DNA from: Deltaproteobacteria bacterium
GTDB taxonomy: Bacteria > Desulfobacterota > Binatia > UBA12015
NCBI GenBank assembly: GCA_016874795.1
Contig: VGTG01000006.1
Coordinates: forward strand, 1 to 64,000
Length of the DNA stretch: 64,000 nt
Direction of reading: 5' to 3'
Below the pieces are notes generated by a model. It worked only from the letters and a program-made list of their open reading frames with translations. It ran no database searches and was not told where the DNA came from. This document shows positions 13,964 through 64,000 of this stretch, piece after piece. The number at the start of each line of letters is the position of its first letter. The stretch's first letter is position 1. The translations under genes and the position numbers were made by a program.

Positions 13964-15052
13964 CTAATCGCTGCGAAGCGCTTCTTCGATCTCCGTCGTC
14001 GAGAGCAGCTCGAAGCGTGTCCGGCCGAGCTCCTCGACTTCCACGAACTTCACGCGGCTCTCGTCTCGCTTCTTGTCCGTCTCGACGGCGCGCGCGAGCT
14101 CGCCCGAGTCGAGCTCGGCCGGAATGCCGACCGGAAGCCCGAACCGCTCGAGGAGCCGCGCCACGCGCTTCTCCGACTCGGGCGCGAACCCCGACCGCAG
14201 CCGGGAGACGCGCGAGGCGAAGACCATCCCGATCGAGACGGCCTCGCCGTGCAGAAAGCGCCGATACTCCGTGACCGCCTCGATCGCGTGGCCGAGCGTG
14301 TGACCGAAGTTGAGGATCGCGCGACGGTCGCTTTCCTTCTCGTCCTCCATCACGACCTGCGCTTTCAAAGCGGCGCAGCGGTGCACGACGTCGGCGAGGA
14401 CCGTCCGGTCGTGCGCGTTCAGGGCGTCGGCGTTCTTCTCGAGGAGCGCGAACAGGTCCGGCGAGAGGATCACCGCGTACTTCACGACCTCGGCCATGCC
14501 GGCGCGGAGCTCGCGCGGCGGCAGCGAGGCGAGCGTCTCGACGTCCGCGAGGACGAAGCGCGGCTGGTGGAACGCGCCGACGAGGTTCTTTCCCGACTTC
14601 AGGTTGACGCCGGTCTTCCCGCCGATCGACGAGTCGACCTGCGCGAGGAGCGTCGTCGGGACCTGCACGACGTCGATGCCGCGCAGGAACGTCGCGGCCG
14701 CGAAGCCCGTCAGATCGCCGATCACGCCGCCGCCGACGGCGACGAGCGCCGACTTCCGCTCGATGCGCGCGGCGGCGAGCGCCTCGTGCACGCGCTCGAG
14801 CTGGGTCAGGCTCTTGTGCTCCTCGCCCGAAGGGACGACGACGCGCGTGTGCGAAAAGCCCGCGCTCGTGAGCGAGGACCGCACCTTCTCGCCGTAGAGG
14901 CCGTCGACGATCGGATCCGTGATGACCGCGATCTTCCGGCTCTTGAGGAGCGGCGCGAGGTGCTCCCCGAGCTTCCCGAGCGAGCCGGCGCCGACGCGGA
15001 TCTCGTACGAGCGATCGGCGAGCGACACGACGATCGGGTCGAGCTCGCTCAC
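13964..15052 (-). CDS. aroB: 3-dehydroquinate synthase
   Basis: GTG at 15052 overlapping aroK stop; VAVGGGVIGDLTGFAAATFLRGIDVVQVPTTLLAQVDSSIGGKTGVN. Confidence 0.95.
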   Translation of the reverse strand: MSELDPIVVSLADRSYEIRVGAGSLGKLGEHLAPLLKSRKIAVITDPIVDGLYGEKVRSSLTSAGFSHTRVVVPSGEEHKSLTQLERVHEALAAARIERKSALVAVGGGVIGDLTGFAAATFLRGIDVVQVPTTLLAQVDSSIGGKTGVNLKSGKNLVGAFHQPRFVLADVETLASLPPRELRAGMAEVVKYAVILSPDLFALLEKNADALNAHDRTVLADVVHRCAALKAQVVMEDEKESDRRAILNFGHTLGHAIEAVTEYRRFLHGEAVSIGMVFASRVSRLRSGFAPESEKRVARLLERFGLPVGIPAELDSGELARAVETDKKRDESRVKFVEVEELGRTRFELLSTTEIEEALRSD

Positions 15053-15597
15053 GCGGAGGCTCCTCCCGCGCCGCGTCCCGCCGCGGTCCGCGCGCTCTCG
15101 ATCTCGATCTCGATCCGCTCGACGACCTGGTCCGGCGAGAGATCGGACGTGTCGATCTTCCGCGCGATCCGCTGATAGGCGGGCGCACGCTGCGCGAGCA
15201 GGTCCCGGATGCGCGCGATCAAGTCCGGATGGCCGCGCAGCAGAGGACGCGTCTCGACGGAGTCGCCGACGCGCTTGGCGATCGCGTCCGGGCGCGCGAC
15301 CAGGCAGAGGAGGAGCCCCGCCTTCTCGAAGGCGACGCGATTGTCGTCGTCGAGCACGGTCCCGCCCCCCGCGGCGATCACGGCGTCGCTTCCGCGGCAC
15401 ACCTCGCGGACGGCCTCCTTCTCGAGCGCGCGGAAGCGCACCTCGCCGTCCCGCGCGAAGATCTCGGCTACGGACATGCCGGCGCGCTCCTCGATCCAGG
15501 CATCGAGATCGATGAACGGGAGCCCACGGCGCGCCGCAAGGCGGCGCCCGACGGCGCTCTTTCCCGTTCCCATGAAGCCGGCCAGCACGATCCGCAT
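15049..15597 (-). CDS. aroK: Shikimate kinase
   Basis: MRIVLAGFMGTGKSAVGRRLAARRGLPFIDLDAWIEERAG. Confidence 0.95.
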   Translation of the reverse strand: MRIVLAGFMGTGKSAVGRRLAARRGLPFIDLDAWIEERAGMSVAEIFARDGEVRFRALEKEAVREVCRGSDAVIAAGGGTVLDDDNRVAFEKAGLLLCLVARPDAIAKRVGDSVETRPLLRGHPDLIARIRDLLAQRAPAYQRIARKIDTSDLSPDQVVERIEIEIESARTAAGRGAGGASA

Positions 15598-15607
15598 CGC
15601 TCCTTCA

Positions 15608-17986
15608 TCATCCGGGGATCGAGGTCATTGGGGAAGGCGGCTGCTGCGAGGGCTCGGTCGGCGGGGTGAGAACCTCGTAGGCGCTCTTGTCCCGCTCCTT
15701 CCACAGATCCGCGGCGCTCGGCAGCCGGGTCGGCTCGACCGTCCGCCAGATCACCCGCGGAGTGATGAACACGAGGAGCTCCTGTCGACGGTCCTCCACC
15801 GACTGGTTCTTGAAGAGCCAGCCGAAGACGGGGACCGTCCGGAACCAGGGGACTCCGGCCTCCGAGGTGTTCGCCTGCTGCCGGTACACGCCGCCGATGA
15901 CCACCGTCTCGCCGTCGCGGACGAGGACCTGCGAGGTCGCTTGGCGGCTGATCTCGTTCGGGATCTCGTCGGTCTCGGCGGTGCTGGGCACGCTCGACTT
16001 CACGAACATCTGCAGCAGGATGTAGCCGTCGTTGGACACCTGCGGCGTGACCCGCAGGATGATGCCGGTGTCGATCGCCTGCGTCGCCACGGTGTTCGCG
16101 CCGGCGACGCCGCCCGCACCCGTGTTGATGACCGTGCCGGTCGACGGGAGGCGGACGCGCAGGATCTCGAGGCTCTGGATCTGCGCCTCGGCGTTGTTCA
16201 GCGTGATGACCTTCGGGCGCGAGATGACCTTGCCCTTGCCGGCGTTCTCGATCGCCGTGATCTGGGCGTCGATCTGCGTGCTGCCGTCGAGCGAGCCGAG
16301 GAGGAGACCGAGCGTGCTGCCGGCGCCCGCCGTCACGCCCTTCGCCGGGAAATCGACGAGGATCGGGGCGCCCGTGGCTTCTTCGCCGCCCTCGCCGTCC
16401 ACGACGTCGCGCGGACCGCCGCCGCCGATGCCGATCCGGCCCGGGAAGTTCTTGCCGGTCGGATTCCCCGTCTCGGGGCTCGCTATGTAGCTCGCGCCCC
16501 AGCGCACGCCGAGGTCGCGGGCCATGTCGGTGTCGGCTTCGAAGATGAGGCCCTGGATCGCGACCTGCGGGGTCTGCACGTCGAGGCGCCGCACGAGCTC
16601 GCGCGCATTGAAGATGCCGTCGGAGATGTCGCGCACGATCAGAGTGTTCGTCGCGTCGTTGACCATGACCGTGCCGCGGCTCGAGAGAAGCCCGATCCGC
16701 TGTCCGGCGTCCTCACCGGCGACCGCCTCGACCGCATTCACGTTCGCGTTCGAAGTGGTCGATCCACCGTTCAAGAGGAGAGCGAGGTCGCGAGCTTTGA
16801 CGTAGTTGATCTTGAGATAGGCCGTCTGGAGGGGCTCGAGCTGCTGGCCCGCCTGGCGGGCGGCGAGACGCGCGCGGCGCTCTTCCTCGAGCCGCTTCGA
16901 GGTCGAGATCGTGATGACGTCGTCGTACTCGACCATCTCGAGACCGGTCGACTTCAAGAGGATGTCGAGCGCCTGGTCCCAGGGAACGTCGTAGAGGACG
17001 ATCGTGACGCGGCCGGTGACGTCGTCCGTCGCGACGATGTTTCGGTGCGCGACGTCCGCGATGATGCGGAGCACGTTCAGGATGTCCGCGTCCTTGAACT
17101 CGAGCGAGATCCGGCGGCCGTTGTAGGTCTTCCGCGTCGGCGAATCGACGAGGTCCGGGAGGCGCTCCTCCGGTCCTGCGTGCGCGACCGGCGCCGCTCC
17201 GACCTGCACACCCGGCGGGATCGCCGGATCTGTCATCGGATCGGGCTCCGCACGCGCCGGAGGCGGAGGCAGAGGCTTCCTCGCGGCCGCCTGCTCGATC
17301 GGCGGAAGCGAATCCGCTTGCAAAGCCGCATCCAGCCCGGCCGTCGAGCCTTCGAGCGCGAGCGCCGCATGCGCGTGCGCTCCCGGCGGGACGTCGTAGG
17401 ATTGCCACACCTGGCTCACCGTCGCGCCGCTCGGATTCTCTCCGAGGCCGACGACGACCGCGCTTTCCTTCACCGAGACGTCGCAGGTGCCGGCCATCGC
17501 GGCCGACGCCTCGACGACGAGGCGAAGTCGATCCGGGTACTGTCCGACGCGCACCCGCGGCGCCAGGGGATCAGCCGTCTTGACGGTGCTCGGTCCGAAG
17601 TTCTTGGCGGTCGCACCGTTCACGTCGACCACGCAGCGCGTCGGCGCCTTCAGCTCCTGGGACGTCCACTTGTCCGGCGAGCGCGACAGCTGCACGACCA
17701 TGCGCGTGCCGTCCATGTCGCCGGTGCGCGACACCTCGAGCACGCGTAGCGTCGCCTCTTCGGTGAAGCTCCCCGCGTCGAGAGCGTCGGCGACGTCGCC
17801 GGTCGCTTCGTCGGCTGCGCCCGCGCCGGCCGGCCCGTCGGTCTGGCCTTCGGCCTCGACCACTCCGTCGCCGCTGATGTGCGTCTCGTAGTCGCGGCCG
17901 ACGATCTCCGGCTTGGGCCGCTGCCCCGCGCAGCTCAGAAGCAAGACGGCCAGGGACAGCCACAGCCCCGGACCGACACACGTCAC
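15608..17986 (-). CDS. pilQ: Type IV pilus secretin PilQ
   Basis: GTG at 17986; AMIN-like N-terminus, ISLEFKDADILNVLRIIADVAHRNIVATDDVTGRVT, secretin domain VGGVYRQQ...GWLFKN...LLVFITPRV. Confidence 0.93.
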   Translation of the reverse strand: MTCVGPGLWLSLAVLLLSCAGQRPKPEIVGRDYETHISGDGVVEAEGQTDGPAGAGAADEATGDVADALDAGSFTEEATLRVLEVSRTGDMDGTRMVVQLSRSPDKWTSQELKAPTRCVVDVNGATAKNFGPSTVKTADPLAPRVRVGQYPDRLRLVVEASAAMAGTCDVSVKESAVVVGLGENPSGATVSQVWQSYDVPPGAHAHAALALEGSTAGLDAALQADSLPPIEQAAARKPLPPPPARAEPDPMTDPAIPPGVQVGAAPVAHAGPEERLPDLVDSPTRKTYNGRRISLEFKDADILNVLRIIADVAHRNIVATDDVTGRVTIVLYDVPWDQALDILLKSTGLEMVEYDDVITISTSKRLEEERRARLAARQAGQQLEPLQTAYLKINYVKARDLALLLNGGSTTSNANVNAVEAVAGEDAGQRIGLLSSRGTVMVNDATNTLIVRDISDGIFNARELVRRLDVQTPQVAIQGLIFEADTDMARDLGVRWGASYIASPETGNPTGKNFPGRIGIGGGGPRDVVDGEGGEEATGAPILVDFPAKGVTAGAGSTLGLLLGSLDGSTQIDAQITAIENAGKGKVISRPKVITLNNAEAQIQSLEILRVRLPSTGTVINTGAGGVAGANTVATQAIDTGIILRVTPQVSNDGYILLQMFVKSSVPSTAETDEIPNEISRQATSQVLVRDGETVVIGGVYRQQANTSEAGVPWFRTVPVFGWLFKNQSVEDRRQELLVFITPRVIWRTVEPTRLPSAADLWKERDKSAYEVLTPPTEPSQQPPSPMTSIPG

Positions 17987-62627: not shown

Positions 62628-63812
62628 ATGACGACCCGCGAGCCGATTCGTCCCGCGCGCGTGCTCGCCCTCTCCGAGGCGCCGATCCCTTCCGCCGTCC
62701 TCGGCGTGCACGCCGTCTTCGACGCTCTCGCGAGCGGTACGCGGCGTTGCGAGCTGCGCACGGGCTCGACGGTCACGCCGTCGAAGCACGATTTCGCGTG
62801 GGCGGACAGCGTCGTGCTCGTGCGCGGGGCTTCGCCGGGCGAGCGGCGGATCCTCGTCGAGGCGAAGCGTCTCGGGAAGCGCGTCGCGACGTACGTGGAC
62901 GACGACCTCGAGCGCGTCCCGGCCGAAGCACGAAGCGGGTACTTCTTCACCTCGGAGGAGGTGCGCCGGAACGTCGCGTTCATCGTCGCCCACGCGGACG
63001 ACGTGCTGGTGTGCAGCGATCGCCTCGCGGACGAGATCGTCCAGCGTCACCGGCGCCGCCCGCTGCGCGTGCTGCAGCCGCGGCCGCCGCGCCTTCCCGG
63101 AGAGACGGTGCCGCGTCCGGCGGCGTCGCCGACGCGGATCGGGTTCCTCGGGAGCGTCGACCACGCCGCGTTCCTCGACGCTCTCCTCGGCGACGTGCTT
63201 CGCGAGGTCCATGCGGAGCTCGGCGGGCGCGTGGAGTTCGTCTTCTGCGGCGCCGAGCCGAAGGTCGCTCTCGATCTCGAAGCGGAGCGCCATCCGTTCG
63301 AGATCGACTTCGGAGGGTGGCGCCGCCGCGCTCTGGGCCTCGGCATCGCGATCGGCCTCGCCCCGCTCCCGGAGAGCGACTTCCACCGCTTCAAGTACTG
63401 GAACAAGTACCTCGAGTACGGCTCGCTCGGGATCGCGGGCATCTACTCCGACGTGCCTCCGAGCCAGGACGTGGTGCGCGACGGCGCGACGGGGCTCCTG
63501 TGCGCGAACGATCCGGCGGCGTGGAAGGAGGCGATCCAACGGCTCGTCAGCGAGCCGGCGCTGCGCGATCGCATCGGACATGCCGCGTACCTCGACGTCG
63601 AGGCGCGCTTCTCCGTCGGAGCGCTCCTGCCGCACTGGACGACGGCGCTCGGACCGATCCTCGATCACCGCGCGCCGCCGTGCCGTCCGGAGGACGTGCA
63701 GCTCGTGTCGGGCCCGTTGCGCCACGCTCTCGACCGCCTCGCGATCTACGGCCCTCTGCGCTTCACCGAGCGCGTGCTCGGACGGCTCACGGGACGGTTC
63801 CGCTGGGGGTAG
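62628..63812 (+). CDS. Glycosyltransferase-like protein
   Basis: AKRLGKRVATYVDDDLERVP, DDVLVCSDRLADEIVQRH, RIGFLGSVDHAAFLDALL, FKYWNKYLEYGSLGIAGIYSDVPPSQDVVRDGATGLLCANDPAAWKEAI. Confidence 0.8.
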   Translation: MTTREPIRPARVLALSEAPIPSAVLGVHAVFDALASGTRRCELRTGSTVTPSKHDFAWADSVVLVRGASPGERRILVEAKRLGKRVATYVDDDLERVPAEARSGYFFTSEEVRRNVAFIVAHADDVLVCSDRLADEIVQRHRRRPLRVLQPRPPRLPGETVPRPAASPTRIGFLGSVDHAAFLDALLGDVLREVHAELGGRVEFVFCGAEPKVALDLEAERHPFEIDFGGWRRRALGLGIAIGLAPLPESDFHRFKYWNKYLEYGSLGIAGIYSDVPPSQDVVRDGATGLLCANDPAAWKEAIQRLVSEPALRDRIGHAAYLDVEARFSVGALLPHWTTALGPILDHRAPPCRPEDVQLVSGPLRHALDRLAIYGPLRFTERVLGRLTGRFRWG

Positions 63813-63857
63813 CATCGAAGACGGGCACCCTCGCCGATCCGGCGGGATGGGTCTGAA

Positions 63858-63937
63858 GGGGGTCCGGTTCGTTAGGCCGTATCTGCACCCAGGCTCGGGA
63901 GCCTGGGTGCAGATACGGCCTAACGAACCGGACCCCC
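63858..63937. repeat. Perfect 39-bp inverted repeat with 2-nt loop (terminator, REP-like element or artefact)
   Basis: GGGGGTCCGGTTCGTTAGGCCGTATCTGCACCCAGGCTC-gg-GAGCCTGGGTGCAGATACGGCCTAACGAACCGGACCCCC. Confidence 0.97.
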
Positions 63938-64000
63938 TACTGGGTCGTGTAGGCGTCGATCACGTCCTCGGCGCTGCCGTCCATGCGCACGAGGCCCTTC
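63937..64000 (-). CDS. 3' end of probable polysaccharide ABC transporter ATP-binding protein (truncated by window)
   Basis: Reverse strand reads KGLVRMDGSAEDVIDAYTTQ-stop, like the C-terminal end of Wzt/TagH-type ATPase domains. Confidence 0.4.
   Translation of the reverse strand, partial: KGLVRMDGSAEDVIDAYTTQ

Follow-up and report, generated by a model that had tools for sequence, protein, structure and literature searches.

A perfect palindrome at a stop codon belongs to a dispersed family that shares its ends with a Y1 transposase element

The 64,000-nt stretch of DNA analysed here (the window) carries near its right end a perfect palindrome that is very probably a mobile, non-autonomous, transposase-dependent element. 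Because the same arms flank an intact Y1 transposase gene on another contig of the genome, C66, the palindromes are best read, from their sequence, as internally deleted derivatives of that C66 element. The unusual part of the family is its position at stop codons.

Structure and setting of the window palindrome

The palindrome consists of a 40-bp left arm (63857-63896, + strand), an unstranded 2-nt GG loop (63897-63898) that differs between copies of the family in both length and sequence, and a 40-bp right arm (63899-63938, - strand) that is the reverse complement of the left, with zero mismatches over the 40 bp. The perfect pairing and 2-nt loop of the original prediction therefore stand, while its arm length of 39 bp is replaced by 40 bp. 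Among the 25 inverted repeats listed for the window, this is the longest and the only one with 100% complementarity. Folded as a single strand it reaches -94.4 kcal/mol, versus -42.6 kcal/mol (sd 4.0) for shuffled sequences (z = -13), and inspection of both strands found no T-tract beside it, as had been claimed. Each arm carries a near-invariant outer end, GGGGTCCGGTTCG (63859-63871, + strand; mirror copy 63924-63936), which is the putative recognition end for a transposase, and an inner variable stretch at arm positions 16-22 (63874-63880, + strand; mirror copy 63915-63921), where most of the changes common to both arms fall.

The two neighbouring genes are convergent. On the left lies a gene that reads as glycosyltransferase-like (62628-63812, + strand), whose end is separated from the GGGG edge of the palindrome by 46 nt, and on the right is the 3' end of a gene predicted to encode a polysaccharide-type ABC ATPase (63937-64000, - strand), which extends past the window. 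The palindrome had been described as ending inside the antisense stop of the latter gene (CTA, 63937-63939), and indeed the C and T of CTA, two bases of this TAG stop on the - strand, lie within the palindrome. The TAG aligns with a TGA in three congeners.

The palindrome belongs to a dispersed repeat family

BLAST against the genome returned at least 40 full copies of the palindrome, so a single-copy sequence, which the original prediction had named as an argument against a mobile family, is not what was found. The 15-mer GGGTCCGGTTCGTTA, allowing up to 2 mismatches, gave 135 matches (69 + 66), whereas its reversed control gave 1 (0 + 1). With tandem and shared copies merged, 62 loci bearing the arms were read, comprising the C66 element and 61 other palindromic or partial loci. 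In most copies the palindrome is near-perfect and spans about 78-93 bp; the arm consensus is A-N-GGGGTCCGGTTCGTTACGGCGCATCTGCACCCAGGCTC. The outer 13 bases are near-invariant across 46 complete copies, an invariance that is partly a product of searching with the same motif, while arm positions 16-22 are variable and hold most of the 39 both-arm changes seen in these copies; differences in one arm only are commoner (153). Perfect pairing over 36 bp was found in 7 of 46 measured copies, with a mean of 3.3 mismatches, and the window copy ranks among the perfect ones. As perfect arms are atypical of the family, the proposal that they reflect recent formation or arm-to-arm correction applies to the window copy and not to the family as a trait.

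The number and variety of these loci bear on the suggestion that the palindrome is a fold-back artefact of assembly. The genome is a 360-contig draft, and one palindrome copy is common to the ends of two contigs; it stands at the start of both C202 and C310 (L058 and L057), facing opposite ways, where the repeat has broken the assembly. However, dozens of loci spread over different contigs have arms with different variants, and different loops, which makes a fold-back so unlikely as to be nearly negligible.

Several structures adjoin the copies. At L082 (1000-1037) and L087 (1000-1063) shorter palindromes keep only the outer end of the arm. Beside the palindromes at L072, L075 (13486-13602), L085, L088, L064 and L038, short stretches of arm or flank are duplicated in tandem, which suggests replication slippage at the hairpin. 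A second dispersed element, about 190 bp long with near-identical copies and the ends CTAGCCTGCATTTCTCACCAGATC, is present at L079 (1030-1215), L046, L060, L071, L075, L019 and L093; it looks like another non-autonomous element, and at L079 it is inserted within a palindrome copy.

The same arms flank a Y1 transposase gene

The genome encodes 13 Y1_Tnp genes, of which the one on C66 scores best. This gene is intact and is bordered on both sides by 41-nt inverted repeats, forming a full element of left arm, transposase gene and right arm at about 15020-15875 (approximately 856 bp end to end), the one full element found in the genome. The original lead, a resemblance to long palindromes sometimes found near REP-associated tyrosine transposases (RAYTs), was borne out in that a Y1_Tnp gene flanked by the palindrome's own arms coexists with many copies of the palindrome. 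The 239-aa product matches Pfam Y1_Tnp (9e-15) and the solved structure of TnpAREP (PDB 4er8; 1.4e-4), and scores 71 bits against NCBIfam REP_Tyr_transpos, under the cut-off of 80; PHROGs gave one weak family only, of unknown function. Its HUH motif NHFH (residues 59-62, within MPNHFH) and YVERNP (residues 122-127) are both kept in relatives, and its C-terminal tail is partly conserved, with no HTH family at E<=0.001. Relatives with 44-55% identity occur in Planctomycetota, Nitrospira, Acidobacteria, Proteobacteria and others, where the transposase gene often lies between inverted repeats of 18-25 nt of similar design, e.g. AAAAGGGGACAGGCTACTTTT.

The 12 other Y1_Tnp genes are of a second type (contigs C162, C9, C118, C65, C136, C49, C207 and five more; L029-L035). 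Seven of these 12 were read; they show 70-77% DNA likeness among themselves and lack the flanking arms. Enzymes of the second type could in principle act on the palindrome ends.

A target-site duplication of at least 4 nt was found at 0 of 52 copies. Small size and terminal inverted repeats would also suit a MITE of a DDE-type insertion sequence, but the missing duplication and the presence of the same ends around a Y1 transposase gene make that origin very improbable. Under the favoured reading, a derivative of the C66 element, two terminal inverted repeats (TIRs) of about 40 bp from a Y1 element of the TIRtron kind would have become fused head to head with loss of the transposase gene. Judging from the shared ends, the transposase would work in trans: its substrate would be the hairpin that the element adopts as single-stranded DNA, and it would cut near the GGGG ends and join the element to new sites. 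Recognition would rest on the outer GGGGTCCGGTTCG; farther in, within the variable stretch, pairing of the arms may count for more than their sequence.

The family is confined to one species among the genomes compared

In 13 further genomes of the host's taxonomic family, three congeners among them, neither the arm motif (up to 1 mismatch) nor close relatives of the C66 transposase (E<=1e-30) are present; each congener has 0-1 Y1_Tnp genes. At the window locus the three congeners keep both genes in order with no palindrome between them, an empty site in what is a comparison between species. These sequence comparisons indicate that the palindrome family is recent and species-restricted among the 14 genomes of its taxonomic family. 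An exact-pattern scan of viral contigs and of contigs from GTDB genomes other than this one gave no matches, and Rfam returned only sub-threshold, microRNA-like hairpin matches without meaning here.

The empty sites also bear on a functional alternative, which sees mobility as no more than the origin of the palindrome and has the host selecting it, between convergent genes, as a terminator for both directions or as a stabiliser of mRNA 3' ends. The hairpin would be very stable in the transcript of either strand, many copies lie at gene 3' ends, and 24 of 60 classified copies are located between convergent genes. This 40% is nevertheless close to the expectation from the convergent share of intergenic length in the window (2677 of 6770 nt), and enrichment between convergent genes was dropped on this ground. 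Moreover, a T-tract is missing, some copies occupy divergent spacers and the congeners handle the same gene pair without the element. We consider host selection for such a role unlikely; a terminator or mRNA 3'-end effect, if any, is predicted to be secondary to mobility.

Palindrome borders coincide with stop codons

We examined 59 borders that face the 3' end of a gene, and an in-frame stop lay 0-3 nt from the GGGG in 35 of these and 4-119 nt away in 12. Counted by element, 23 of 50 (46%) had at least one border 0-3 nt from an in-frame stop, and 7 had both, versus 1.8% for random intergenic points or 2.9% when the A..T motif was required (binomial 1.7e-22); the border counts and the null both derive from the codon-bias gene calls of this analysis, and the exact numbers are uncertain accordingly. 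At four loci (the window, L041, L047 and L087) the stop at the border is aligned with that of the congeners' homologous gene; these stop positions are ancestral, so the genes there were not truncated. TAA makes up 14 of 35 border stops (40%) versus 8 of 146 elsewhere (5.5%; p about 1e-6), and at the three TAA loci compared the congeners have TGA or TAG, just as the window locus has TAG where they have TGA. The TAA enrichment and the congener differences fit a model in which the element edge supplies the last two bases of the stop, although a target preference for TAA could give the same pattern. On insertion at the stop of an intact gene, the A-rich edge (A-N-GGGG) would probably complete T|AA, T|GA or T|AG.

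Simple target motifs did not account for this placement. A palindromic target ANNT, suggested by a frequent A at -2 and T at +2, was rejected since the two sides are independent (39 observed versus 38.2 expected), and element-borne edges fit this independence better. As a cause of stop placement ANNT likewise fails, given the motif-conditioned null of 2.9% against the observed 46%. A strict T|A target with AAN element edges, checked by hand, failed at some double-border loci. At ends that do not adjoin genes the A at -4 recurs with no excess of T, so something beyond the junction sequence is needed to account for the preference for stops.

Either targeted insertion or selection could explain the placement. 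That the Y1 system itself prefers stop codons for insertion, with the edge A-N-GGGG re-forming the stop, is possible but doubtful; if true, copies could spread through a genome packed with genes and leave coding sequences undamaged, even where convergent genes almost touch. We give about an even chance to the alternative that the placement arose without transposase targeting, either through selection after random insertion or through palindrome-associated deletion eroding the spacer. The short duplications beside several copies suggest slippage near the palindrome, and the lack of a T preference at ends away from genes, despite the A at -4, means that the junction alone specifies no stop, both of which suit this alternative. 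Against it stand the sharp concentration of gene-end borders at 0-3 nt, with so few at 4-119 nt, and the gap between the observed frequency and the 2-3% expected from random intergenic points, whether or not the A..T motif is required. The placement thus poses a testable question, namely whether a single-strand transposase chooses stops or selection spares such insertions.

Comparison with known systems

The original comparison with palindromes near REP-associated transposases holds, with the refinement that the family is of the TIR/TIRYT type and not the GTAG-type REP. Like the present system, TIRYTs and TIRtrons have GGGG-bearing terminal inverted repeats around a Y1 transposase that is about 238 aa long and carries the motifs NH-x-H and Y---NP. 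Di Nocera et al. (2013; PMC3733652) described a motif, GGGGWSAS, common to some TIRs though not all; the ends found here, GGGGTCCG, fit this motif at 7 of 8 positions, with C for A. Such TIRs can build dispersed families, often as dimers, and the published families have been termed moderately abundant. Quentin et al. (2018; PMC6006769) placed most TIRYTs in TnpAY1 subclass 2.1, whose members are near 238 aa in length with a C-terminal HTH-like domain and YIELNP or Y[IV]HLNP motifs, from which the YVERNP found here differs slightly; they detected no REP-like sequences in the neighbourhood of genes of this subclass. The present family differs from known TIRtrons in that, at some 60 loci, its arms of about 40 bp have joined into palindromes that are close to perfect, and its exact stop-codon placement stands out.

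In IS200/IS605 elements an HUH/Y1 transposase likewise acts without target-site duplication, but these carry subterminal hairpins without terminal inverted repeats, whereas terminal inverted repeats are present here. An intrinsic terminator would share the hairpin, which here lacks the T-tract on both strands. GTAG REPs are also extragenic palindromes near gene ends, and their termini often supply the TAG stop of flanking ORFs (PMC3733652); the present ends are A-N-GGGGTCC, the arms are longer and TAA is the commonest border stop. REPINs (Bertels and Rainey 2011; PMC3116915) are similar in being non-autonomous inverted doublets that form a long hairpin with conserved ends, in their compensatory changes in the middle (here the 39 both-arm changes, mostly at positions 16-22) and in having a cognate Y1 transposase. 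In contrast to REPINs and GTAG REPs, the family has no 5' GT[AG]G (GTAG/GTGG) foot, its conserved ends being A-N-GGGGTCCGG, and its arms are predicted to form a hairpin together but, unlike those of REPINs, are not known to be REP hairpins singly. Taken together, these comparisons fit a family that belongs to the TIRtron kind and, by analogy, may work like a REPIN. It offers a clear case of a TIRYT-type Y1 transposase accompanied by some 60 miniature palindromes that share its ends, in a transposase group for which this link was previously reported as moderate or absent.
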